A DNA stretch of 64,000 bases, taken from positions 1,674,001-1,738,000 of the forward strand of contig NC_022600.1 in NCBI RefSeq assembly GCF_000484535.1, written 5' to 3'. This DNA is from Gloeobacter kilaueensis JS1 (GTDB lineage: Bacteria; Cyanobacteriota; Cyanobacteriia; Gloeobacterales; Gloeobacteraceae). A program made the position numbers and the translations under genes. A model generated the notes under the pieces. It did no database searches, was not told the origin of the DNA, and saw nothing but the letters and a program-made list of their open reading frames with translations. Shown here one piece after another: positions 27,646 to 62,850 of the stretch. Position 1 is the stretch's first letter; each line of letters opens with the position of its first letter.

Positions 27646-28036
27646 GGTTTTTGGTTAAGCCCAGCTTTGATCGTAACCACGGTTGCACGGGCTACAGAAT
27701 AGCCAGCCAATCTCAACAGTAACGGCAGCAGTAAACAGATGCTGTCTACTCAGCTTAGCGTCGTTTAGAACACAGCGATTTTGCAGCGTCCTGGCTACAA
27801 TTTAGGCGATTTTTTGGGGAGTGGTCATGGCAGTTACGCACAAGAGGCGGTGGTGCCAGCGGCTGTGCTGGAGTTTGGGGCTAGCGGCTGTGCTTGGAGT
27901 ATGGCCTTCAGCGACGATGGCACAGGTGGTCTTTGAGTTGCCTCTGAATTTTCCTGCTGGCCAGCGTCCCGGTACAGCTGCCGTGGGAGACATAGATGGC
28001 GATGGCGACCTCGACACTGTCACCGCTAATTACGGG

Positions 28037-28172
28037 TCAGACAACGTTTCGGTGCTGTTGAATACTGGAAGCGGTAGTTTTGCTTCTCCAAGAAATTTCC
28101 CAGCTGGAGACGGGCCGAGGTCAGTGGCCCTGGGGGATCTAGATGGCGACGGCGACCTCGACATCGTTACTG
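28037..28172. repeat. Intragenic repeat copy A (near-identical to 29063-29198)
   Basis: A 136-bp segment differing from the copy 1026 bp downstream at only a few bases. It spans one inter-loop region and one Ca-binding loop of the FG-GAP protein. The 1026-bp offset is a multiple of three, so the reading frame is preserved. Confidence 0.8.
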
Positions 28173-29062
28173 CCAACGCAACCTCTAAAGATGCGTCGGT
28201 GCTACTGAATACCGGCAATGGCAGCTTTGCTCCTGACCGATCCTTCGCAGCTGGGAATAGCCCCTACTCTAAAGCGGTGGCTCTGGGAGATATCGATAGT
28301 GACGGTGACCTCGACATTGTCATTGCTGATATAGGTCTGTCCCCCGACTTTTTCAGTACCGTATCAATACTGCTCAACGCTGGTGATGGCAACTTCGCTC
28401 CTGCCCAAGCCTTCGCAGTCGGGGAGTTTGCCGTGTCGGTGGCATTGGGGGATCTAGATGGTGACGGCGACCTCGACATCGTTACTGCCAACGAAACCTC
28501 TAAAGATGTGTCGGTGCTACTGAATACTGGCAGTGGCAGCTTTGCTCCGGCTCGATCCTTCGCAACTGGGAATAGCCCCTGCTCTGTAGCGCTGGGGGAT
28601 CTCGACGGCGACGGCGACCTCGACATCGCTATCGGCGGTGCTATAGCAGTGCTGCTCAATACCGGCGACGGTAGTTTTGCATCTCCAGAACTCGTTGGAC
28701 AATATTTCCAATCGGTAGCTCTCGGTGACATTGACAGTGACGGCGATTTGGACATTGTCGCTGGTAGTAATGGCATCGTGGCGATATTGTCCAATAGCGG
28801 AGGTGCCACCTTTACGGCTGCTCACTACTTTCTAGTGGGGTTTACCTCGACCCAAGCGTTGCTGGGAGATCTAGATAAGGACGGTGACCTCGACATCGTT
28901 ACCGCCAACAGCAGCGCAGACAACGTGACAGTAGTGCTAAATATCGGTGGGGGCGCTTTCGCCGCGCCTCAAAGTCTTCTAGTAGGGGATTATCCTGGAT
29001 CGGAAGCACTCGGAGATATCGACGGCGATGGTGACCTTGACATCATCACGGCCAATGTCCTG

Positions 29063-29198
29063 TCAGACAACGTTTCGGTGCTGTTGAATACTGGAAGCGG
29101 TAGTTTTGCTTCTCCAAGAAATTTCCCATCTGGAGACGAGCCGAGGTCAGTGGTCCTGGGGGATCTAGATGGCGACAGCGACCTCGACATCGTTACTG
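29063..29198. repeat. Intragenic repeat copy B (near-identical to 28037-28172)
   Basis: Second copy of the same 136-bp coding segment, just upstream of the IS630 insertion. Differences such as GACGAG versus GACGGG and GACAGC versus GACGGC change single residues. It points to recent internal duplication or gene conversion. Confidence 0.8.
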
Positions 29199-29297
29199 TT
29201 AGCAATTCCACAGATTCGGGTACAGTGTCGGTGCTGCTCAACAACGGAGATGGCAGCTTTGCGCCCGCCAAGTTCTTTGTGGTCGCAGAGGCGGCTA

Positions 29298-30593
29298 GTG
29301 CAGGTGGGCTGAGTCAGTCTGGTAGTTTGTAGGCAGGATTTCGGTAACCACTCATGCCTGGACCCAAACCACCCGCTCTGGTACTTGCTGAAGATGTCCG
29401 CTCAGCTCTGCAGAAATTCTCAACCAAACACAGCACCCCCCAACAGCTAGCCTGGAGAGCCAAACTCATTCTTGGTTGCGCCGACGGCCTCAATAACTCC
29501 CAGGTGGCACACGCTCACGACACGGACCCCGATGCCGTGCGCTTTTGGCGCAGCCGCTGGCTGGCTGTTGCGGCCATCCCACTGCCAGATCTCAGCATTG
29601 AGGAGCGACTGGCCGATGCCCCCAGAGCAGGCAAGAAGTCTGCTATTAGCCCGGAGCAGTTTTGTCAGATTGTCGCTCTAGCGTGTGAAGCGCCAGAAAA
29701 ATCAGGCCGCCCGATTACTCAGTGGTCTGGCAGCGAAATCGCCAAAGAAATCGTGGCCCGTGGCATCCTGCCTTCAATTTCGCCGCGTCATGCCTTGCGC
29801 CTACTCAAAAAGGGGATCTCCAACCCCACCGCGTCCGGGGCTGGCTCACCGCGCTAAAAGACGAGAACTTTGAACCTAAAGTGCAGCACATCTGCGCACT
29901 TTACCAACAGGCACCCGCCCTGCAAGCGGCGGGAGAAGTAGTTTTCAGCAGTGATGAAATGACCGCAGTGCAAGCACTGGAGCGTCTGCATCCAGACAAG
30001 CCAATGCGGCCAGGAGCGCCTGAGAAGCAGGAGTTTGAGTACATTCGTCACGGCACGCTGTCTCTGATTATTCATCGGGAGGTGGCCAGTGGCCAACTTG
30101 TCGCGCCGTTTGCCGCTCCCACCCGTGCAGAAGAAGACTTCGCTCTTTCTTTGGTGCTGGCGATGGGCACCCGTCCTGAGGCTGTGCGCTGGCACTTTGT
30201 GGTGGACAATCTCAACATTCATCAGTCTGAGTTGCTGGTGCGGTTAGTCGCTGCTGTGGAGGGTAGCTCTGAGAAGTTGGGGCGCAAAGGCAAAAGCGGC
30301 ATCCTCAAGTCGATGGCCAGCCGACAGGCATACCTGAGCGATCCGAAGCACCGAGTTGTTTTGCACTACACACCCAAACATGCCTCCTGGCTCAATCAAG
30401 TCGAGATGTGGCTATCGATCTTGGCACGCAAAGTGCTCAGGCGTAGCTCGTTCCGCTCAGTTGAGGAGTTGCGCGAGCGGGTGTGGGCCTTTATTGAGTA
30501 TTACAACCTGGAATGGGCGAAGCCGTTCAAGTGGACCTACCAGGGCAAGCCTTTGCAGGTATGAACTACCAGCTCTTTTCAGCCCATCTGCAC
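29298..30593 (+). mobile_element. IS630-family insertion sequence, complete (1296 bp)
   Basis: The ends are 15-bp inverted repeats with one mismatch: GTGCAGGTGGGCTGA at 29298-29312 and TCAGCCCATCTGCAC at 30579-30593. The element is flanked by a duplicated TA dinucleotide (29296-29297 and 30594-30595), the normal IS630/Tc1-type target duplication. It carries a two-frame transposase. It sits inside the FG-GAP gene, and the restored junction is in frame. Confidence 0.93.
29354..30564 (+). CDS. IS630-family transposase, two frames joined by -1 frameshift
   Basis: The first frame (29354-29857) starts [20 protein letters not shown] and carries the HTH DNA-binding domain. The second frame (from 29809 to 30564) reads [20 protein letters not shown] and carries the DDE catalytic domain: [24 protein letters not shown] and [13 protein letters not shown] supply D, D and E. 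The frames meet at CTCAAAAAGGGG (29804-29815), where slipping back one base on the A run after the Leu-Lys codons joins RLLK to [12 protein letters not shown], giving about 403 residues. The conserved LKPHRVRGW-type block is restored only by the shift, so a functional frameshift is more likely than decay. Transposase cuts and pastes at TA sites. Confidence 0.85.
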
Positions 30594-31637
30594 TAGTGCG
30601 ACCGCCCTGGGAGACATCGACGGCGACGGCGATCTCGACATCGTCACCAGCATCGAAAGCTCAGACCCCAATGCCAATCTATCGGTACTGCTCAACGCTG
30701 GTAATGGCAACTTCCTCTCGGCTCCAGCGCTCTCGACTGGACTGCCGGTTGGTACCCTTGCCCTCGGTGACATCGATGGTGACGGTGATCTAGATATCGT
30801 CGGTAACAATGGTGGCCTCTATCCTAGCTATGCTGGCACAGTAGCTGTGCTGCGCAACGCTGGTGGCGGCAATTTTGCTCCTGCCCAGTTCCTGGCGGTT
30901 GGCAAGCTCCCGGTAGGAGTAGCCCTGGGAGATCTCGATCGGGACGGTGATCTCGACATCGTTACAGCTAACTATTCTTCCGCTGATGTGTCTGTGCTTT
31001 TCAACACCGGTAGCGGCAGCTTTGCTCCCGCCCAGGCCACTACTGCCAACGCCTCTCCTCTTGCGCTGCGTCTAGGAGATCTAGACGGTGATGGCGACCT
31101 TGATATTGCCACCGCTAACGGTTTTACTTGCACAGTATCGGTGTTGTCGAACACTGGTAGCGGCAGCTTTATTAGCCCTGCCCAGAGCTTCCCAGCAGGG
31201 GATTTTGTCACTGCAGTCGCCCTGGGGGATCTCGACGGCGACGGCGACCTCGACCTTGCCAGCACCGACAGATTCTCCAATAGCGTGACGGTGCTGCGCA
31301 ACATTACCCAGGCTCCAGCTCCTCCTACCATCACTGCCCTTACTCCCCGCTTCGGCGCGGTGGGCAGCGAGGTGACAATCACCGGTACTGGCTTCAGCAG
31401 TACTACTGCTGTCACCTTCCGCCTCGGCTTTCCTAAAAAGCGGGTAGCAGCCCAGTTCACCGTGATCTCGGACACCGAGATTCGGGCGGTGGTGCCGCAG
31501 GGTGCGAAAAAGCTGGGCCGCATCGCAGTAGAGACACCGGCAGGCGAAGCCGTTAGCCCCGTAGTCTTCTTCGTGACGGCGCAGCAGCAAGCCGGTGCGC
31601 CCCTCGTTCCGCAAGCCCGCTGAATCCTGGCTTCCAG

Positions 31638-34390: not shown

Positions 34391-35551
34391 ATGAATATGC
34401 GTTCTATTTCCTGGCTTGCGCTTTTCTTCTTACTCACTCCGGCGGCTGTCCTGGCCCAGTTCCCCGAGCGGCCCCTTCTGATCGCCCAGGACGATCAAAA
34501 GCGCTTTGAGGCCCAGCAGCTTTTTAATCGGGCCAACGACAAGAGCAGCGCAGGCGATTTTGCCGGGGCGATCAACGATTACAACCGGGCGATTCGCCTT
34601 TATCCCGGCTATTACCAGGCTTTTGGCGGTCGGGCAGAGGCGAGGCGCAAATCCGGCGACCTGCAGGGGGCGATCGCCGACTACCAGCAGATGGTCCGCA
34701 TCTTTCCGAACGATGTCGGGGTCTACCACAACCTGGGCAAGCTCTACTTTCAGTTGCAGGACTATCCCCAGGTGGTCGTCTATACGACCGAGGCGCTCAA
34801 CCGCAACGGTGACCTTAAAGACGTTCACCAACTGCGGGCAAATGCGCTCATCCGCCAGGGCGACTTTGGCCGCGCCCTCGAAGACTTCGACGCGATTTTG
34901 GGGGTGCGGGCACCGGATGTAGTCAATCCCGACAATCCCGAGGTGTCCACCTTCAGCCCCGACGACGCACCGGTGCTTGCCCGGCGGGCATTACTCTATC
35001 AGCGGCTGGGCAGATACACCGAAGCGCTCGCCGACTACAACGCCGCCCTCCGGCTCGATCCGAAGTTGAGCTACGCCTACGGCTGGCGGGCCAGCCTGCG
35101 CTCGGTGCAAGGATCCAATCTTTCGACCCTCGACGACTGCGACGCAGCGATCAAGGCGAATGCCGCTACGGCGCTCATCTACTACATCCAGGGCAACGCC
35201 CGCTTCAATCTGGGCCAGAAGGCTCTGGCCACCGCCGCCTACGAACAGGCCGTCGCTCTGCCCTTCGGCAGCGATGCGATCCCGGCAGAAGATCTTGACT
35301 ACAAGGCCCGCGCCGATGCCCGCTTCAACCAGAAACAACTGCCAGAGTCTCTCGCCGACTACGATCAGGCGCTGCGCTTCAATCCGAACTACGCCGAGGC
35401 GTACTTCAAACGGGGCAGTCTGAAGCTGGAACTGGCGGACCGGACCGGAGCGCTGGCGGACTTGCAAAAAGCCCAACAGCTCTTTGCCGGGCGGGGCGAC
35501 AAGTTCAACGCCGACCGCGCCCAGGCGCTGGTAGCCAAACTCCAGACTTAA
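34391..35551 (+). CDS. Exported TPR-repeat protein
   Basis: A 386-residue protein with a signal peptide (SISWLALFFLLTPAAVLA, cleaved near A-QFP). The mature chain is made of tetratricopeptide helices. Examples are GDFAGAINDYNRAIRLYPG, GDLQGAIADYQQMVRIFP and LGRYTEALADYNAALRLDP; at least six to eight units are visible. TPR proteins in the cyanobacterial periplasm or lumen serve as assembly scaffolds; the partner is unknown. It begins 65 bp from the M16 protease and may share a divergent promoter region with it. Confidence 0.85.
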   Translation: MNMRSISWLALFFLLTPAAVLAQFPERPLLIAQDDQKRFEAQQLFNRANDKSSAGDFAGAINDYNRAIRLYPGYYQAFGGRAEARRKSGDLQGAIADYQQMVRIFPNDVGVYHNLGKLYFQLQDYPQVVVYTTEALNRNGDLKDVHQLRANALIRQGDFGRALEDFDAILGVRAPDVVNPDNPEVSTFSPDDAPVLARRALLYQRLGRYTEALADYNAALRLDPKLSYAYGWRASLRSVQGSNLSTLDDCDAAIKANAATALIYYIQGNARFNLGQKALATAAYEQAVALPFGSDAIPAEDLDYKARADARFNQKQLPESLADYDQALRFNPNYAEAYFKRGSLKLELADRTGALADLQKAQQLFAGRGDKFNADRAQALVAKLQT

Positions 35552-35616: not shown

Positions 35617-36939
35617 ATGGGTTACATCTATCCCAGCGATCTCGCCGCCTTTGTCTTTGAAATTTGGCAGCGCACGCCCGGCGAGATCGAGGGCCACTGG
35701 TTAAACCAGCCCGCTTACCAGTTACCCTCTCTGGCGACGCTCGAAGAGTTGCTGTCCACCTGCTTTCAGGCAAGTCTGCTGGTCGAGGAGCAGCGCCCGG
35801 TCACCTTCCGGCTACTGTTTGGCGAACCGGAAGTGTTCGAGCCGCAGGCGGGACCGCCTATGGGTCTGTTGCGCCTGCTCTTCGATGTACCGCAACCATT
35901 TAGCGCCCACGATCTGCGCCGCCTCTCCCCCGCCGTCCGCTTCGAGCGCTCGCTCATCGGGGTGCGCCTCAACGACGAAGGAGAGCTGGAGATCTGGGGG
36001 ATCATCCACTCCGGGCCGCGCTGGCTAAGGCTGTTGCGCGGTGGCCGGGGCACCAGCCCCCCCTTGCCGCCGTTTCTGGTTATCTGTGCCAGTGGCCGGG
36101 GCCGCCTCGAGGTCTGCAAGGGCACCACGGCCCTTGCCCAATTGAGCGAGGGACAGCTGTATTCTCAGTCGCTCAACGTCTTTGAATCCCACTGGCTACC
36201 GGCCAGTTTTGCCACCGTGCGCGCCGAACTGGCGGAGTTGCACGCCCAGTCCCGGCGGCAGGAGGGTACCGATTGGGCGGCCCTCGATCCGTATTTTGTC
36301 AAGCGTCTGGCCCAGAACATCGTCAAGCGGGTGATCGCGACGATCCGGGGTGCCCACCACGGCGGCACCGTCGTCTTCGTCGATCCGCAGCGCACGGAGC
36401 TACTCACAGAAAAAAATCCGTATATCACCTTCAAGTACCGCTTCAGGGCGGAGGAGGCGAGGGCGCGCTTCCGGACGTTGCTGGTCAAAAGCATGAACAC
36501 GCTGGCGGCGATCGAGAGCGGCAGCCAGAGGCCGGTGGGCTGGAAAGATTACGAGTGCAGCAACGACGAGATGCTTCTCACGCTCGACGAGGCGATCTTC
36601 GAGCTGGCCCATCTTGTCGCGACCCTCGCCTCCGTCGATGGGGCGGTGGTGATGACCAAGCGCTTCGAGATTCTTGGTTTTGGCGGTTTTATCGGCTGCG
36701 AGAATGCCGAGGTGCCGGTGGTCGCCCGCGCCCTCGATCTTGAAGGCGAACAGGTGTGCTTTGAATCGACCGCCAGTGTCGGCACCCGCCACCGCTCCGC
36801 CTATCGTCTGTGCCAGCAGTGGCACGATGCCGTCGCGGTGGTTGTCTCTCAAGACGATGGGGTGCGCTTTTTGCACTGGAAGGACGGTTTTGTCACCAGC
36901 TGGAATCAGCAGACGCTGCTCAACGCGATGGATTTTTAG
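35617..36939 (+). CDS. DACNV-like sensor plus diadenylate-cyclase-type (DisA_N) domain protein
   Basis: A 440-residue protein. The C-terminal part has both signature motifs of c-di-AMP synthases: DGA in ASVDGAVVMTKRFEILGFGG (Asp341-Ala343) and RHR in GTRHRSAYRLCQQWHDAVAV (Arg391-Arg393), with intervening spacing similar to DAC domains. The N-terminal 250 residues match the layout of the DACNV sensor domain that precedes DAC domains in some proteins. I infer a diadenylate cyclase or an ATP-sensing relative. No adjacent c-di-AMP phosphodiesterase is visible. The dimer-interface and metal-site residues beyond DGA/RHR cannot be judged by eye, so activity is not assured. Its 3' end faces cobU. Confidence 0.65.
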   Translation: MGYIYPSDLAAFVFEIWQRTPGEIEGHWLNQPAYQLPSLATLEELLSTCFQASLLVEEQRPVTFRLLFGEPEVFEPQAGPPMGLLRLLFDVPQPFSAHDLRRLSPAVRFERSLIGVRLNDEGELEIWGIIHSGPRWLRLLRGGRGTSPPLPPFLVICASGRGRLEVCKGTTALAQLSEGQLYSQSLNVFESHWLPASFATVRAELAELHAQSRRQEGTDWAALDPYFVKRLAQNIVKRVIATIRGAHHGGTVVFVDPQRTELLTEKNPYITFKYRFRAEEARARFRTLLVKSMNTLAAIESGSQRPVGWKDYECSNDEMLLTLDEAIFELAHLVATLASVDGAVVMTKRFEILGFGGFIGCENAEVPVVARALDLEGEQVCFESTASVGTRHRSAYRLCQQWHDAVAVVVSQDDGVRFLHWKDGFVTSWNQQTLLNAMDF

Positions 36940-39477: not shown

Positions 39478-40386
39478 ATGATGAGCGGCAAGCGCGATAC
39501 GGCCCGGCCTGAAGACCGCCTCAGAGTGGTAAACGCTCCGCGCACGGAGGCGGCTGGTTGCTGGTTATCCGTAGATGCGATCCGGCCCTGCGACAGCCAG
39601 CCCCGGCGCTTCTTCGATCCCACTGCTCAGCAGGAATTGATCGAGTCCGTGCGCCTGCATGGCATTCTGCAACCGCTTCTGGTCCGGCCCGTCGATGGGG
39701 GGCAGTACGAACTGGTCGCCGGTGAGCGCCGCTACCGGGCTGCCCGCACCGTCGGCCTTGAGAAAGTGCCGGTGCTGATTCGGCAGCTGAGCAATGCGGA
39801 GGCAATCGAATCGGCGCTCATCGAAAATCTGCAGCGGGAGGAACTCAATCCTCTCGAAGAGACCGAGGGCATCTTGCAACTGCTGGCCCTCAAGCTCGGC
39901 CAGTCCGAGGAGCAGATCGTCTCGCTACTGTACCGGATTCAGAACACGGCACGCCTCAAGGGTACCGATAACGTTATGGGTAGCGCTGAGGCTACCGCCG
40001 TACAGGCACTGTTTGCCAGCCTCGGCAAGATGACCTGCGACTCGTTTATCAACAACCGCCTGCCCCTGCGCAACCTGCCTGCCGATCTGTTTCGGGCGGT
40101 ACGGCAGGGCAAGCTCGCCTACACGAAGGCGCGCCTGCTGGCCCAAATCAAGGACCGCCCCCGGCGCGAGCGGCTGCTCGATCAGACCCTGCGCGAGGAT
40201 CTGAGCCTGAGCCAGCTACGGCAACTGGTGCGCCTCGCCTGCGCCCAACCCGAGCCTGAGCCTTTATTCAAGCGCCTGGCAGCGGTCTACCGCCGGGTCA
40301 AAAAGATCGACTGGCAAGATCCCGCCAAGCGCGCCCGCTTCGAGCAACTGCTCGGCGAGTTGGACGCGCTGGTAAGCAACGAGTAA
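39478..40386 (+). CDS. ParB/Spo0J-family protein without adjacent ParA
   Basis: A 302-residue protein. The ParB/Srx nuclease-like N-domain has box I AGERRYRAA (GERRYR, residues 82-87) and box II ENLQREELNPLEE (residues 116-128), which bind CTP in true ParB clamps. A HTH region follows (LRNLPADLFRAVRQGKLAYT, KARLLAQIKDRPRRER). The C-terminal region (LFKRLAAVYRRVKKIDWQDP) may dimerise. No parA lies nearby. It may be a chromosomal segregation protein with parA elsewhere, or a repurposed ParB-like DNA-binding protein. Confidence 0.82.
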   Translation: MMSGKRDTARPEDRLRVVNAPRTEAAGCWLSVDAIRPCDSQPRRFFDPTAQQELIESVRLHGILQPLLVRPVDGGQYELVAGERRYRAARTVGLEKVPVLIRQLSNAEAIESALIENLQREELNPLEETEGILQLLALKLGQSEEQIVSLLYRIQNTARLKGTDNVMGSAEATAVQALFASLGKMTCDSFINNRLPLRNLPADLFRAVRQGKLAYTKARLLAQIKDRPRRERLLDQTLREDLSLSQLRQLVRLACAQPEPEPLFKRLAAVYRRVKKIDWQDPAKRARFEQLLGELDALVSNE

Positions 40387-41346: not shown

Positions 41347-44055
41347 ATGAAAATGAAGCAACGCGAGACTCACTCGCGTCTTTTGCTGGCTACACTTGTT
41401 CCAGCCCTGGTCGGTACGAGTGTTCTGGCAGATGCGGCCCAGGCATTGCCGACGACGAAACTGGCAGAATTGCCAAAAAATAGTGTTGCGCGAGTAAAGC
41501 CCTCTAGCAGCGGCTCCCTGGACATTACGGGGGCGAAGAGTCTCTTAGAGCAGGCGAGTGGTTCAGCGGTCGATCTGGAGGTGCGCCCGGAAGCCTGGAA
41601 CTGGACTCGACCGGTGACTGTGCCCCGCGTTGCCCAAGGGGCGGCTCCGGCAGCCACGCCCCAGACAGCGGCAGAACCGGCGGAACCCTCAGACGAAGAG
41701 ACCGAAGTCCTCGACGAGGTAAACGTCACGGCCACCCGCCGTCCGGCCCGCGCCCGCGATATTCCGTCGGTCGTCTACACGGTCAAAAAAGAGGACTTCC
41801 GCGCCCAGAACGCCCAGACAGCCACCGACGCGCTGTCGCTGGTACCGGGCTTTCAGGCGGCTCCGGCTCTGGGTGGTGTGCGCAACGCGGCGGCGGTCTT
41901 CTTGCGCGGCTTCGACGACCAGCGCTTTCAGGTTCTCAAGGACGGCTTACCTCTCGAGCGGTCTTCCAACGGTCGCAGCGACGTGTCGCGCTTTCAAGTC
42001 GAAGAACTGGAGCGCATCGAGGTCGTGACCGGCGGTGCCACCCTGCGCTATGGCTCTGGAGCGGTGGGCGGCGTCATCAACTTGATCACCGAGACGCCCA
42101 AGGGGCCGCCCAAGCTCACCCTGCAGTACCAGGGCGGCTCCTACGGCTTCAACAAGTTCGTCGCCAAGTACGGCGGCGGCGACGACACGTTTAGCTACAA
42201 CTTCGTCTACACCGGCATCGTTGCCCCCAACCGCTATCCATTCCAGCTCACCAATCAGGCCAACGCCCAGTTCTACGGACCCAACGACTTTGCCAAAAAC
42301 CCAAGCTGTCCGGCGCAGTTTGATCCCGACGGCAACTTACTCAACAACTGTGCCAACGGCGGTTTCCCAGACGGTACCCCCTTATTTGGCTTCCTCAAGC
42401 CCGAGGTGGGACCGCCGGTGACGGTGAGCGGCACCGCCGATTCCTCGAACGCCGCCAGCGACACCTACAGCGGTAAGCTCGTCTTCAAGCCCGATCCGAG
42501 TAACCGGATCACCGCTCGCGTCACCCAGCAAAATTCCTCTACCGAGTCGAACAGTCCGGGTGCCTACTACTTCTCGCCCTGCGTCGGTGGTCCATCGAAT
42601 TTTCCAAACGGTACGCTCAGCTTTGACCGCTCGGTAGCGGTTGATCGCTCCGGTCGCGAGGTGGGCTGCGGCCCGCAGCGCTTTATCATCAATACGCCCT
42701 CGGCTGCCTTCGGTCCACCTTTTTCTTACAACACCTCGTTTAATGGCAAGACAGTCTTTCCCACCGGCCAGGCGTACCAGGGGGCGGAGCCGGTCACGGG
42801 CACGATCGATTTCTTTCAGCAGAACAACCAATCCCAGACCGAAGCTGCCGTTCAGTGGGATTACAACATCACACCCACCACCAGCCTCAACAGCTTCATC
42901 TACTACTACCGCTTCGGCAGCACCAACACCGTTCCCACCAACTTCATCTATAACTCCAACTTTGGCATCGGCACCGCCGGACCAAACGGCGACTTTGGCA
43001 TCGTGACGCGCAACCCGGCAGCCCAGCCCTTCGCCTCCGGTAACAAGTTCGTGGCCGAGACAGCGCTCAACTGGCAGATCTCTCCCGGTCAGACCCTCAC
43101 CTTTGGGATCAACTTTACCGAGGACCGCTCCTACCAGCAGAAGCAACAGGGTAGAAGCTTCTTAGACCGCTCGGTGGCGCGCACGTCGATCTTCCTCATC
43201 GATGACATCAGCTTCAGCGATCTGATCAAAGCGAACGTGGGCATACGCTACACGAGCAGTTCGCAGTTCGGCGAGGTGCTCACCCCCGGCGTCGGCCTGC
43301 GGGTCACACCCCTGAGCTGGCTGTCGTTTCGGGCCAACTGGAACTACGTCTTCAACGCCCCCAAAATTAGCGACCTCTACGTTCAGAACGGTCCCTTTCT
43401 GGCCAACCCGAACCTGAGGCCCGAATCGGGCGTGGCGGTGGATGCGGGTGTAGACATCACCCCGGCCAACAACCTCTTCTTCCGGGCCACCTACTTCAAC
43501 ATCTACCTCGACGGCTTCTTCGGCAACCAGCTCTTTGCCAACCCCAACTTCAACAACCCCAACGATACGACCGGTACCTCGAACTTCGCCTTCCTGCAGC
43601 AGGTGCAGAACCTCGCTACCCTCATCTCCACCGGCATCGAATTTCAGGGCCAGTGGCAGATAACAGACCAGTTCTCGCTCCTGGTGAACTGGACCAATAC
43701 CGACTCGCGGGCCGTTGGGCGCACCGATAGCATCTCGACCACCCTCTTCACCTACCAGATTCAGAACGCCGGCATCCCCTTCAACAACGTCGGTTTCCGG
43801 CTCACCTACGCGAACAAGGGGTTGATCGCCGCCTTCGTGGGCCGTTACTACGACGGCTTTGTAATCGACTACAACAACACCCGCACCCCGACGTTCTTTA
43901 CCCTCGACTTCAACTCCGAGATCCCGATCACGCCCTACTTCACCCTGTTGGGCAGTGTCTTCAACATCTTCGACACCCAGTATCAAAATCCCGCCGGTCT
44001 ACCCGCGCCGGGGACCACCTTCACCGTGGGCGGTCGCCTCGAAATCGGCGGCTAA
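41347..44055 (+). CDS. TonB-dependent outer-membrane receptor (copy 1)
   Basis: A 902-residue outer-membrane receptor. The signal peptide is near residues 10-33. An unusual N-terminal extension follows (RPEAWNWTRPVTVPRVAQG), with a Pro/Ala/Glu-rich stretch and then a TonB-box-like start VLDEVNVTATRRPARARD. The plug domain shows LSLVPGFQAAPALGGVRNAA and LERIEVVTGGATLRYGSGAV; the barrel ends with ITPYFTLLGSVFNIFDTQYQ and GTTFTVGGRLEIGG. Such receptors import siderophores, cobalamin or other large ligands using TonB/ExbBD; the substrate cannot be read. cobU is about 4 kb upstream but has no evident operonic link. It is followed by a homologous receptor. Confidence 0.92.
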   Translation: MKMKQRETHSRLLLATLVPALVGTSVLADAAQALPTTKLAELPKNSVARVKPSSSGSLDITGAKSLLEQASGSAVDLEVRPEAWNWTRPVTVPRVAQGAAPAATPQTAAEPAEPSDEETEVLDEVNVTATRRPARARDIPSVVYTVKKEDFRAQNAQTATDALSLVPGFQAAPALGGVRNAAAVFLRGFDDQRFQVLKDGLPLERSSNGRSDVSRFQVEELERIEVVTGGATLRYGSGAVGGVINLITETPKGPPKLTLQYQGGSYGFNKFVAKYGGGDDTFSYNFVYTGIVAPNRYPFQLTNQANAQFYGPNDFAKNPSCPAQFDPDGNLLNNCANGGFPDGTPLFGFLKPEVGPPVTVSGTADSSNAASDTYSGKLVFKPDPSNRITARVTQQNSSTESNSPGAYYFSPCVGGPSNFPNGTLSFDRSVAVDRSGREVGCGPQRFIINTPSAAFGPPFSYNTSFNGKTVFPTGQAYQGAEPVTGTIDFFQQNNQSQTEAAVQWDYNITPTTSLNSFIYYYRFGSTNTVPTNFIYNSNFGIGTAGPNGDFGIVTRNPAAQPFASGNKFVAETALNWQISPGQTLTFGINFTEDRSYQQKQQGRSFLDRSVARTSIFLIDDISFSDLIKANVGIRYTSSSQFGEVLTPGVGLRVTPLSWLSFRANWNYVFNAPKISDLYVQNGPFLANPNLRPESGVAVDAGVDITPANNLFFRATYFNIYLDGFFGNQLFANPNFNNPNDTTGTSNFAFLQQVQNLATLISTGIEFQGQWQITDQFSLLVNWTNTDSRAVGRTDSISTTLFTYQIQNAGIPFNNVGFRLTYANKGLIAAFVGRYYDGFVIDYNNTRTPTFFTLDFNSEIPITPYFTLLGSVFNIFDTQYQNPAGLPAPGTTFTVGGRLEIGG

Positions 44056-44076: not shown

Positions 44077-44112
44077 GATCTCGCCCGGTGCTGCTGCGCG
44101 CCGGGTGGGATC
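44077..44112. other. Intercistronic stem-loop between the two TonB receptor genes
   Basis: Twelve-bp stem with two G-U pairs (GATCTCGCCCGG at 44077-44088, CCGGGTGGGATC at 44101-44112) and a 12-nt loop. No T run follows, so it is more likely an mRNA processing or stabilising element than a terminator. Confidence 0.55.
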
Positions 44113-44165
44113 TCTCAAATTGCGTACAGGGGGAGATTTTTCTACCTGCAAGGAGCCTGCAAGCC

Positions 44166-46778
44166 GTGAAACTCTATCCACTTGATTGGCAGACAAAGCT
44201 CGTCGTCACTGTCCTGGCAGGGACGCTCTCGCTCGCCGCAACCGCCCAGGCAAGCCCAAATGCGAAGCTGGCAAAATTGCCCACGGCCCGCTTCGGGAGC
44301 GAGGGTGCAAGAAGCCTCCTAGAACAGGCGAGTGTCTCTGCCGCCGACCTGGCAGTGCGTCCGGAAGCCTGGAACTGGACCCAACCGGCAACGGTGCCGC
44401 GCCTTGCCCAAGGGGCGGCTCCGGCAGCCACGCCCCAGACCGCAGCCGAACCGGCGGAACCCGCCGAAGAAGAAGGCAACGTCCTCGACGAGGTCAACGT
44501 CACCGCTACCCGCCGCCCCACCCGCGCCCGCGACACGACAGCGACCACCTACTCGATCAAAAAAGAAGATTTTCAAAAGCAGGGAGCGACCACGGTCACA
44601 GACGCGCTGGTGCTGGTGCCGGGCTTTGTCGGTCAGCCCTCGCTGGGCGGTATTCGCAACTCCGGCGGCAACTTTTTGCGCGGCTTCGACGATCAGCGCT
44701 TTCAGGTGCTCAAAGATGGCCTGCCCCTGCAGCGGCCTTCCAACAACCGCTCCGATGTCTCGGTGATCCAGGTCGCAGACCTCGAGCGCATCGAGGTCGT
44801 AACCGGTGGGGCGACGCTGCGCTACGGTTCTGGGGCAGTGGGCGGTGTCATCAACCTCATCACCGAGACGCCCAAGGGGCCACCCAAGCTCACCCTCGAA
44901 TACCAGGCGGGCAGTTACGGTTTCTCGCGCTACCTGGCCAAGTACGGCGGGGGCGACGACACCTTCAGCTACAACTTGATCTACACCGGCCAGGTCGCCT
45001 TCAACAACTATCCCTTTAGCTTCACCCTGCCCAATTCGGCCCAGTTCTATGGCCCCAACGATGTCGTCACCGGCTCCACCGATCCGAACGTTCCGGACGG
45101 CACCTCGCTTTTTGGCTATCTCAAGCCCGATGTCGGCCCGCCCATCAAAGTCCAGGGCACAGCCGATGTCGCCTTCTCGGCGATCGATACCTACACGGGC
45201 AAGCTCGTCTTCAAGCCCGATCCGACCAACAAGATCACCCTCCGCCTCACCCAGCAGAACAACCGCAACTCCGGCAACGGTCCGGGAGCCTACGCCTTTG
45301 GCACCTGTTTTGGCGGCGTTGCCCTACCGGGAACCAACGGCACGATCGGCAACTTCGGCGGTCCGCGCTTCGTGCCCCTCGATACCGCCGGTCGCGAGTT
45401 GCAATGCACCCAGCAGCGCTACGTGGTCAACACGCCGACGAACCTGGTGGCGCTGCCCTACAGCTACAACACGACCCTGAGCGGCCAACCGATTCCGCCG
45501 GGCCGCGCCGATCTAGCAGAGCGGACGATCGGTACGATCGACGGCTTTCAGATCAACGACCAGAGCCAGTTCGAGGCGGCGGTCCAGTGGGACTACGACA
45601 TCACCCCCACCACCAGCCTCAACAGCTTCATCTACTTCTACCGCTTTGCCAGCAACGGCTTCTACCAGCCGTCGGTCTACGGCGGCATCAACACCAACTT
45701 TCCGCTGTTCGGTCTGGGGCCGGTGCCCTCGATTCGGACCGCCGATCTGTTCGGCGACATTGCCCAGCCCTACACCGAAGGCGACAAGTTCGTCGCCGAG
45801 AGCGTGCTCAACACGCGCTTTTCGCCGGGGGGCAACCTGCAGGTGGGGCTGAATATCACCGAGGACCGCTCCTACCAGCAGAAGGGAGGAGGAACGACCT
45901 TTTTTGACAGGACGATCACCCGCAGCTCTATCTTTGCGATCGCCGACATCAGCTTCAGCGAAGAGTTGAAGGCAAATTTTGGAGCCCGCTACACCTACTC
46001 GACCCAGTTTGGCTCAGTCGGGACACCGGCGGTCGGTGTGCGCTACACGCCAAACAACTTCATCTCCTTTCGCAGCAACTACTCCTACGTCTTCAACGCG
46101 CCCAGTCTGTCGGATCTGTTCGTCTCAGGCCAGGTCTTCAGACCGAATCCGGGCCTCAGACCAGAATCCGGCGTGACCTGGGACGTGGGCTTCGACCTGA
46201 CCCCGGCCCAGAATATCGGCGTGCGCTTCACCTACTTCAACACCTACCTGGACGGAGCAATCGGCACCCTGGTCTTCCGCAACCCGGATACCACTTCGCC
46301 CATCATCTTCCTGCAGCAGCAGAACAACCTCGACAGCCGCTACGCCTCGGGAATCGAGCTGCAGGCGGACTGGCAGGCGACGCCCCAGTTTTCTTTCCGG
46401 GCGGTCTGGTCCAACTACGACGTGCGCCAGTACGGCCAGATCGATAACATCAACAACCCCGCCTACCCCTTCTTCTACGGCTATCAAGATCCGAACATTC
46501 CCTTCAACCAGGTGGTCCTCACGGCGACCTACGCCAACAAGGGCTTTACAGCCACGTTGCTGGGCCGCTATGACGGTGGCAAGCGGCGCACCGGGGCGCT
46601 CGACTTTGTACCGGCCTGGTTCACCCTGGATCTGAACGTCGAGCTTCCGATCACGCCGTTTTTGACGATTACGGGCAATGTCTTCAACCTCACCGATACC
46701 CAGTACGAGTACGTGAGCGGTGTACCGGCACCGGGAACGACGTTTCGGGTGGGGGGGCGATTAGAGTTTGGGGGCTGA
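44166..46778 (+). CDS. TonB-dependent outer-membrane receptor (copy 2, paralog)
   Basis: An 870-residue paralog of the preceding receptor. It starts at GTG (44166) with AAGGAG ahead of it; earlier in-frame codons are non-conserved. A signal peptide (LVVTVLAGTLSLAATAQASP) leads to the same motif set: an RPEAWNWTQPATVPRLAQG extension, VLDEVNVTATRRPTRARD, LERIEVVTGGATLRYGSG and a barrel end GTTFRVGGRLEFGG. The two proteins are highly similar in plug and turn regions, less so in the extracellular loops, which suggests a tandem duplication followed by loop divergence. Substrate unknown. Confidence 0.92.
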   Translation: MKLYPLDWQTKLVVTVLAGTLSLAATAQASPNAKLAKLPTARFGSEGARSLLEQASVSAADLAVRPEAWNWTQPATVPRLAQGAAPAATPQTAAEPAEPAEEEGNVLDEVNVTATRRPTRARDTTATTYSIKKEDFQKQGATTVTDALVLVPGFVGQPSLGGIRNSGGNFLRGFDDQRFQVLKDGLPLQRPSNNRSDVSVIQVADLERIEVVTGGATLRYGSGAVGGVINLITETPKGPPKLTLEYQAGSYGFSRYLAKYGGGDDTFSYNLIYTGQVAFNNYPFSFTLPNSAQFYGPNDVVTGSTDPNVPDGTSLFGYLKPDVGPPIKVQGTADVAFSAIDTYTGKLVFKPDPTNKITLRLTQQNNRNSGNGPGAYAFGTCFGGVALPGTNGTIGNFGGPRFVPLDTAGRELQCTQQRYVVNTPTNLVALPYSYNTTLSGQPIPPGRADLAERTIGTIDGFQINDQSQFEAAVQWDYDITPTTSLNSFIYFYRFASNGFYQPSVYGGINTNFPLFGLGPVPSIRTADLFGDIAQPYTEGDKFVAESVLNTRFSPGGNLQVGLNITEDRSYQQKGGGTTFFDRTITRSSIFAIADISFSEELKANFGARYTYSTQFGSVGTPAVGVRYTPNNFISFRSNYSYVFNAPSLSDLFVSGQVFRPNPGLRPESGVTWDVGFDLTPAQNIGVRFTYFNTYLDGAIGTLVFRNPDTTSPIIFLQQQNNLDSRYASGIELQADWQATPQFSFRAVWSNYDVRQYGQIDNINNPAYPFFYGYQDPNIPFNQVVLTATYANKGFTATLLGRYDGGKRRTGALDFVPAWFTLDLNVELPITPFLTITGNVFNLTDTQYEYVSGVPAPGTTFRVGGRLEFGG

Positions 46779-58184: not shown

Positions 58185-58255
58185 GCGGGTGTAGTTTAGT
58201 GGTAAAACCACAGTCTTCCAAACTGTCGTTGCGGGTTCGATTCCCGCCACCCGCT
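58185..58255 (+). tRNA. tRNA-Gly (anticodon TCC)
   Basis: A 71-nt cloverleaf. The acceptor stem is GCGGGTG at 58185-58191 with CACCCGC at 58248-58254, and base 58255 (T) is the discriminator. The anticodon loop reads CTTCCAA, which centres TCC for GGA codons. The T arm is GCGGGTTCGATTCCCGC with the GTTCGAT loop. CCA is not encoded. It lies immediately upstream of the integrase, so it is the likely attachment site of the island. A TATAAT sits 11 bases upstream of its 5' end. Confidence 0.95.
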
Positions 58256-61353: not shown

Positions 61354-62850
61354 GTAAGCATTCACGTGCTGGTCTTGACGGAGCGATAACAGACTGTACG
61401 CTTTCGGTATGAGTGCGTTACCACCCCTGCCCAGCCGTGACGAGTTATTGCAGATGCCCCAGCCGCAGGCGATTGACTTGTTGCTGGAGTACATTACCCG
61501 CCTGGGGGGCATCGTTGAACAGTTGCAAACCCGTCTGGCCACCGACAGCACCACCTCAAGCCGTCCCCCCTCCGCAGACCTCCTCACAAAGCCCGAATCA
61601 CCCAAACCCAAGCCCGAAGGAGAACCCAAGGTTCCGAAAAGAAAACCGGGTGCTCAGCCCGGCCATCAGGGCAAAACCCGCAAAGGCTTCGGCACCCCAG
61701 ACCGTTTGGAAGCGGTCTCGCTGGGGGAGTGTCCCCAGTGCGGCGGGAGGCAGTGGCAGACCCTGAGCGTCGAAGCGCGGCAGGTGGCCTGTTTTGCCGA
61801 GCGGCCTCTCGAAATCGTCGAGTTTCGCCGCCCGACTGGATGCTGTACGCACTGCCGGAGCACCCACACCCCAAAGTGGCCCAGCCGTCTGGTCGGTCAC
61901 TTTGAGCTGGATGCCACGCTCATGGCGGTGCTGAGTTGGTTGGGCCACTACGGCCATCTCAGTCTGGACAAACAAGCCGAATTCGTCGAGAGCTTGTGCG
62001 GCTGGCGGCCTGCGGTGGGGACGCTGGCGGCAGTCAAGGAGCGCACGGCCCTGGCGGTCGCTGCCAGTGTGCAGGCGGCCTGGCAGCATCTGGCCACTGA
62101 GGCGGTGGTGTATGTGGATGAGACGCCCTGGCCGGTGGCTGGGTGTAAAGAGTGGTTGTGGCACTTTGGCAGCGAGCGGCTGAGTCTATTTCATGCCGGG
62201 CAGACGCGCTCGCGTTTGGAACTGCGTGGTCGGTTGGGCGAGCGCTTTTGTGGCACCCTCGTCAGTGATGACTTCAGTGCCTACAACGGCTATCAGGTGC
62301 AGGCGCAGCAAAAGTGTCTGGCCCATCTGCGGCGGCATTTCAAAAAACTCGCCCTCCATCCAGCCGAGCCAGCAGGCATCGGCGCGGTCTTCATTGAGCT
62401 GATTGACGAAGCGTTCAAGCGCTACCGGCAGTGGCAGCAGGACGGGGACAGCGCGAGTTGGCAAAGTTGGGGGCAGCAGTTTCGGGTGCGGGTGGAGCAG
62501 GCGATCCGCACCTGGCAACCGAAAGCAGCCTATGCAGGGAGCAAACTGCTGCGCTCGTTGCAGGAGCGCGCTGGGCAGTGGTGGCAGTTTTTGTCGAATC
62601 CGGCGGTGCGTCCGGACAACAATCTGTCGGAGCGGAACTTACGCTTGGCTGTGACCCGGCGCAAAGTGTCGGGAGGAAGCCGGTCGCAGGCAGGGTATGC
62701 CCAGACGGCGGACTTGTTGAGTGTGATCCAATCGTGTCGGCGGCAGGGCCGCTCGGCGATGGAGTTTTTCGTGCGAGCGTTGCAGGCAACCTATCATGGG
62801 GGTTTTGCTCAACCGTCACTGATCCCGGAAACCAGCACCTGAACAGTTAC
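61354..62850 (+). mobile_element. IS66-family insertion sequence (1497 bp, single-gene type)
   Basis: Its ends begin with GTAA: GTAAGCATTCACGTGCTGGT at 61354, matched by GTAACTGTTCAGGTGCTGGT on the other strand at 62850 (16 of 20 positions). It is flanked by an exact 8-bp duplication GATTGGAC (61346-61353 and 62851-62858), the size typical of IS66. One large transposase gene is present and no tnpA or tnpB, as in the ISBst12-like subgroup. It lies inside the Argonaute gene. Confidence 0.95.
61409..62842 (+). CDS. IS66-family transposase (TnpC type)
   Basis: A 477-residue DDE transposase. The N-terminal leucine-rich region is followed by KRKPGAQPGHQGKTRKGFGT, a zinc-binding part (GECPQCGGRQW and GCCTHCRSTHTPKW), and the catalytic domain. 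Conserved acids lie in VVYVDETPWPVAG, CGTLVSDDFSAYNGY and NNLSERNLRLAVTRRKVSGG. Composition is GC-rich, unlike the surrounding cargo, as expected for a recent arrival from the GC-rich host or a similar genome. It is the sole gene of the element. Confidence 0.94.
   Translation: MSALPPLPSRDELLQMPQPQAIDLLLEYITRLGGIVEQLQTRLATDSTTSSRPPSADLLTKPESPKPKPEGEPKVPKRKPGAQPGHQGKTRKGFGTPDRLEAVSLGECPQCGGRQWQTLSVEARQVACFAERPLEIVEFRRPTGCCTHCRSTHTPKWPSRLVGHFELDATLMAVLSWLGHYGHLSLDKQAEFVESLCGWRPAVGTLAAVKERTALAVAASVQAAWQHLATEAVVYVDETPWPVAGCKEWLWHFGSERLSLFHAGQTRSRLELRGRLGERFCGTLVSDDFSAYNGYQVQAQQKCLAHLRRHFKKLALHPAEPAGIGAVFIELIDEAFKRYRQWQQDGDSASWQSWGQQFRVRVEQAIRTWQPKAAYAGSKLLRSLQERAGQWWQFLSNPAVRPDNNLSERNLRLAVTRRKVSGGSRSQAGYAQTADLLSVIQSCRRQGRSAMEFFVRALQATYHGGFAQPSLIPETST

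Follow-up and report, generated by a model that had tools for sequence, protein, structure and literature searches.

A DACNV–DAC protein of Gloeobacter kilaueensis, a candidate sensor-linked diadenylate cyclase

The diadenylate cyclase (DAC) DisA carries its DAC domain at the N terminus, with DNA-binding domains behind it, and has no histidine before its DGA motif. In CdaA, the side chains that contact ATP are those of Leu31 (GALI motif), Asp71 (DGA), Thr102, Arg103 and His104 (GTRHR), Ser122 and Glu124 (SEE), and Glu124 of SEE is the metal binder (PMC7288161). Mutation of RHR to AAA in Mycobacterium tuberculosis DacA abolishes both ATP binding and activity (PMC3328451). Cyanobacteria need c-di-AMP to survive the night and to acclimate to stress. 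For the early-branching cyanobacterium Gloeobacter, Agostoni et al. (2018) listed two DACs in each of G. violaceus and G. kilaueensis JS1. They described the second as 'extremely divergent', perhaps 'a novel class', noted a '2nd DAC' in Cyanothece as well, and stated that cyanobacterial DACs have no sensor domains (PMC5986932). Proteins combining a DACNV domain (PF21751) with a DAC domain (PF02457) are an architecture catalogued in Pfam, which itself describes DACNV as a 'probable' sensor domain, a role that we adopt here as presumptive. We found no experimental study of this architecture in the literature, nor any publication using the name DACNV. Here we describe a DACNV–DAC protein from G. 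kilaueensis JS1, whose gene is in all likelihood the Gloeobacter '2nd DAC' of the earlier survey.

The gene lies in a stretch of 64,000 nucleotides (64 kb; hereafter referred to as the window) of the G. kilaueensis genome, which is a single contig of 4,724,791 bases. An uninterrupted open reading frame (ORF) of 440 amino acids occupies exactly positions 35617 to 36939 on the forward strand, and the features discussed below are as follows, in window coordinates.

34391–35551, + strand: TPR-repeat protein gene (Pfam TPR), upstream with a 65-bp gap, a possible local partner
35617–36939, + strand: DACNV–DAC protein gene, 440 amino acids, candidate sensor-linked diadenylate cyclase (ORF; Pfam DACNV and DAC; conservation within the genus and across many phyla)
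35710–36009, + strand: DACNV 'probable sensor' domain, residues 32–131 (PF21751, 106.5 bits; in all 67 members scanned)
36076–36165, + strand: conserved four-stranded β subdomain after DACNV, residues 154–183 (AlphaFold2 secondary structure, pLDDT 85–93 in blocks)
36184–36924, + strand: DAC (DisA_N) fold, residues 190–436 (VIA-align Z 12.2 to 3c1y and 9y4s)
36361–36375, + strand: GALI-equivalent strand GGTVV, residues 249–253 (model strand at residues 250–255; H/G/G conserved; matched to GALI by eye)
36637–36645, + strand: DGA motif, residues 341–343, with the putative ribose-binding/catalytic Asp (D341 invariant, 72/72)
36781–36801, + strand: GTRHRSA motif, residues 389–395, putative phosphate binding (G389, R391 and H392 invariant, 72/72)
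36847–36855, + strand: SQD, residues 411–413, in place of the canonical SEE, with the putative metal-binding acid kept as Asp (S411 72/72, Q412 70/72, D413 68 Asp and 4 Glu)

The start codon aligns with those of the congener copies, and conservation extends along the entire ORF, at 64–65% identity in three further congeneric genomes; its product shares 45–52% identity with relatives in several other phyla. The initial annotation had proposed a DACNV-like domain joined to a DAC domain, and profile searches bore this out. The DACNV profile matches residues 32–131 with 106.5 bits (E = 8e-31, 97 of 98 profile positions, cut-off 27) and was found in all 67 family members scanned (67/67), with S53, E58 and G128 nearly invariant across 72 relatives. 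The same annotation had described the N-terminal 250 residues as one domain free of other homology; this part divides instead into the DACNV domain, the β subdomain (conserved positions P151, G162, G169 and G179 in the 72 relatives) and the beginning of the DAC fold at about residues 190–225. The sequence match to DAC is itself weak, since PF02457 scores just above its cut-off (residues 365–415, 27.9 bits versus 27, E = 2e-6), the NCBIfam DAC models fall far below theirs, and a search of the PDB with the single sequence returned no match. A first contig scan with the 440-residue protein as a single sequence likewise gave no match, and a PDB search with a 67-member profile retrieved diadenylate cyclases, the only other matches being chance ribosomal ones at E = 0.014 or worse. 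The identity of the DAC domain is therefore settled by structure.

An AlphaFold2 model built on a 67-sequence alignment has a pLDDT of 91.4 and a pTM of 0.87, and its residues 190–436 adopt the α/β fold of DACs. This region superposes on Thermotoga maritima DisA (3c1y) with a Z score of 12.2 and an rmsd of 2.8 Å over 137 residues (20% identity), as well as on M. tuberculosis DisA (9y4s), mycoplasma DacM and CdaA. At Z scores of 8 and above there are 58 chains, every one of them a DAC, whereas the best unrelated chain scores 2.9. For the DACNV region (residues 1–185), the best match to a known fold was fructose-1,6-bisphosphatase at Z 2.9, too weak to be accepted, and an origin of DACNV as a degenerate DAC by internal duplication was not supported, as a profile–profile comparison of the two halves gave a probability below 5%. 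A search of a viral structure library with the model returned nothing significant.

The ATP contacts of CdaA correspond to D341, T390, R391, H392, S411 and D413, an assignment made by motif rather than by superposition. D341, G389, R391, H392 and S411 do not vary among 72 relatives, and residue 413 is acidic in all 72 (68 Asp, 4 Glu), so the catalytic pocket, far from missing, is kept. The motifs read DGAVV (residues 341–345) and GTRHRSA (389–395), as the initial annotation had recognized. It was mistaken in calling their spacing canonical: 50 residues separate the Asp of DGA from the first Arg of RHR, versus 31 in the CdaA of the same genome. The family carries an insertion between the two motifs, and the insertions in the DAC domain are longer than in CdaA. 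Where canonical enzymes have (V/I)SEE, the protein reads VSQD, retaining the Ser and the third-position acid and exchanging the middle Glu for Gln, a residue found there in 70 of the 72 DACNV–DAC relatives. In these genomes, SEE is the reading of most canonical DACs, the few exceptions belonging to other subfamilies, so SQD(G) is a signature of the DACNV–DAC family. We file the protein as a divergent member of the DAC fold and not as a canonical DAC, because the change from SEE to SQD is a conservative departure common to the whole family. Together with the longer insertion between DGA and RHR, it could affect the use of metal, the reaction rate or the identity of the product.

The Gloeobacter copy retains the second Arg of RHR, a position occupied by Ser, Asn, Gln, Leu, Gly or Ala in many relatives, some of which, judged by this residue, may be inactive or confined to binding; this Arg is absent from the CdaA ATP contacts listed in PMC7288161. 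The Gloeobacterales genome ES-bin-313 (G004) encodes two distant DACNV–DAC paralogues (L059:7998–9284 and L068:7923–9083), of which one reads GARHG, having lost the second Arg and exchanged T for A, and the other GARHR; they form a possible active/inactive pair.

The genome also encodes a canonical CdaA (L001; TIGR00159, 254 bits) in a lysA–cdaA–uppS cluster and one candidate 7TM-HD (PgpH-type) phosphodiesterase, and contains no c-di-AMP riboswitch (RF00379). No Rfam family was found near the DACNV–DAC gene; a promoter scan gave none, and terminator-like sites occur at chance level. The upstream neighbour differs at a congener locus (L011), and the TPR partner is not conserved elsewhere; the downstream neighbour, cobU, is encoded on the opposite strand. 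Ten nearby upstream and downstream genes are mutually unrelated (efflux, radical SAM, histidine kinase, ETF-QO, LuxC and others), and clustering of the flanking ORFs of 80 loci revealed no neighbour family that recurs across phyla. The gene is thus a stand-alone unit, in agreement with its initial description as a compact single-gene unit. Elsewhere, the window carries FG-GAP (integrin-like) repeat proteins at 27821–29332 and 30847–31623, an IPT/TIG domain being present in one of them, with a helix-turn-helix gene nearby at 29354–29857; a ParB/Noc-like partition protein (ParB_N plus HTH) at 39478–40386; adjacent tandem TonB-dependent receptor genes on the same strand at 41347–44055 and 44088–46778, encoding about 900 residues each; a tRNA gene at 58185–58255, the sole Rfam match in the window; and an IS66-family transposase gene at 61409–62842.

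DACNV was present in 7 of the 116 cyanobacterial genomes sampled. A scan of the collection yielded 79 DACNV–DAC loci in about 15 phyla, the lineages including Melainabacteria, Myxococcota, Actinomycetota, Planctomycetota, Verrucomicrobiota, Desulfo-lineages and Magnetococcales. In the phylogenetic tree, the Gloeobacter sequence stands apart from the other cyanobacterial sequences and beside Melainabacteria and one Pirellulales sequence, a placement with an SH-aLRT of only 85; ancient vertical descent combined with losses is possible, as is horizontal transfer.

Co-occurrence with PgpH-type phosphodiesterases bears on the activity of the family. Among 24 genomes checked, a few have no DAC besides DACNV–DAC, and three of these keep PgpH; in the 14 control genomes, PgpH never occurs without a DAC. 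Across 41 Magnetococcales genomes, DACNV occurs in 38 and a PgpH-like enzyme in 40, and a canonical DAC was found in none (0/41; best DAC matches at 1e-6 or weaker). These genomes (G127, G129 and G136–G174; for example loci L117–L146) hold one to three DACNV–DAC copies each, several of the proteins being 600–700 residues long with extra N-terminal sequence, and all copies read are without the second Arg of RHR (RHN/RHS/RHA-type). In the verrucomicrobial order that includes L025 (57 genomes), seven genomes are without a strong canonical DAC, and DACNV is present in six of these seven versus 8 of the 50 others (Fisher p = 0.0005, which overstates independence because the genomes are mutually related and mostly unfinished). 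The seventh (G208) has neither a canonical DAC nor DACNV and is also without PgpH. On the PgpH tree, one clade (G119, G177 and G213) robustly lacks a canonical DAC; its DACNV–DAC proteins have intact DGA, GTRHRS and SQDG motifs, the G119 copy (L025) being 46% identical to the Gloeobacter protein; the other three apparent losses may be assembly gaps, since close sisters of those genomes keep a canonical DAC. DACNV–DAC thus looks like the only DAC in Magnetococcales and in one verrucomicrobial clade. As these lineages keep a PgpH-type enzyme, the pattern argues for genuine c-di-AMP synthesis by the family, and it is the best available sign of it.

On this evidence, the Gloeobacter gene probably encodes an active, DACNV-gated c-di-AMP synthase. 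We infer catalysis, the identity of the product, dimerization and sensing for the 440-residue protein as follows. It would be a soluble, two-part signalling enzyme, in which the classical DisA/CdaA pocket of the C-terminal DAC domain takes up ATP and two such domains, placed face to face, condense two ATP molecules into c-di-AMP. The N-terminal DACNV region would most likely bind a ligand or partner and thereby gate the pairing of the DAC domains or access to the pocket. In Gloeobacter, the protein would provide a second, regulated source of c-di-AMP beside the housekeeping CdaA, and the PgpH-type phosphodiesterase would remove the product. If so, a sensor-linked cyclase would constitute a direct input into the c-di-AMP pathway.

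An unlikely alternative is a DAC relative with no or very weak catalytic activity, acting as a receptor or regulator through its binding of ATP or c-di-AMP, with CdaA making all of the Gloeobacter c-di-AMP. The canonical CdaA in the same genome and the family-wide replacement of SEE by SQD would accord with such a role, as would the replacement of the last Arg of RHR in many relatives (by Gly in a Gloeobacterales paralogue), given the effect of the AAA mutation in M. tuberculosis DacA. However, the Gloeobacter copy keeps both DGA and RHR, the acid at the metal position is retained in 72/72 relatives, the list of ATP contacts does not include the second Arg, and lineages without another DAC keep a PgpH-type enzyme. 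Less probable still is an active cyclase with another product, such as a mixed or linear adenine/guanine dinucleotide: the SQD change falls at the phosphate/metal motif and the insertion lies near the pocket, but c-di-AMP is the main product reported for the DAC family (PMC7288161), and the co-occurrence with PgpH-type phosphodiesterases fits that product. The idea that the ORF arose by chance or decayed recently and has no function is refuted by the full-length conservation (64–65% in the genus, about 50% in other phyla), the intact motifs and the lack of stops.

Returning to the reading as a c-di-AMP synthase, we tentatively suggest for the family as a whole that DACNV–DAC proteins may form a separate synthase class, with SQD and a built-in sensor, which replaced the canonical cyclase in Magnetococcales and the verrucomicrobial clade and persists as a second, signal-gated enzyme in Gloeobacter. 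We found no literature joining Magnetococcales with c-di-AMP. If DACNV–DAC is their only cyclase, c-di-AMP signalling would reach a group nearly invisible to PF02457-based surveys, and the ligand of DACNV would become a well-defined, testable question.

A comparison with known systems places the protein apart from both DisA and CdaA. Like DisA, it has the DAC fold (Z 12.2, 20% identity) and no histidine before DGA; unlike DisA, which reads SEE, it carries its DAC domain at the C terminus with DACNV in front and reads SQD, and it scores 13.2 bits against the DisA model NF010009 (cut-off 201). With CdaA/DacA (Listeria monocytogenes 4rv7, Bacillus subtilis 6huw and the G. kilaueensis CdaA), it shares the fold (Z about 10), DGA, GTRHR and the Ser, whereas CdaA has a transmembrane N terminus that anchors it in the membrane, HDGA and SEE as its motifs, a 31-residue spacing between DGA and RHR, and a place in lysA–cdaA–uppS; the CdaA model TIGR00159 matches that other gene and not the DACNV–DAC gene, and the neighbours here are the TPR and cobU genes. 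The Pfam DACNV–DAC proteins have the same domain order, SQDG signature and size, and the Gloeobacter protein falls within their RHR-keeping subset, from which nothing sets it apart. In contrast to the statement that cyanobacterial DACs have no sensor domains, the second Gloeobacter DAC contains DACNV, a probable sensor domain. New here are the recognition of DACNV in the Gloeobacter copy, its predicted fold with the pocket, SQD as a family signature and the lineages in which DACNV–DAC appears to be the sole cyclase.
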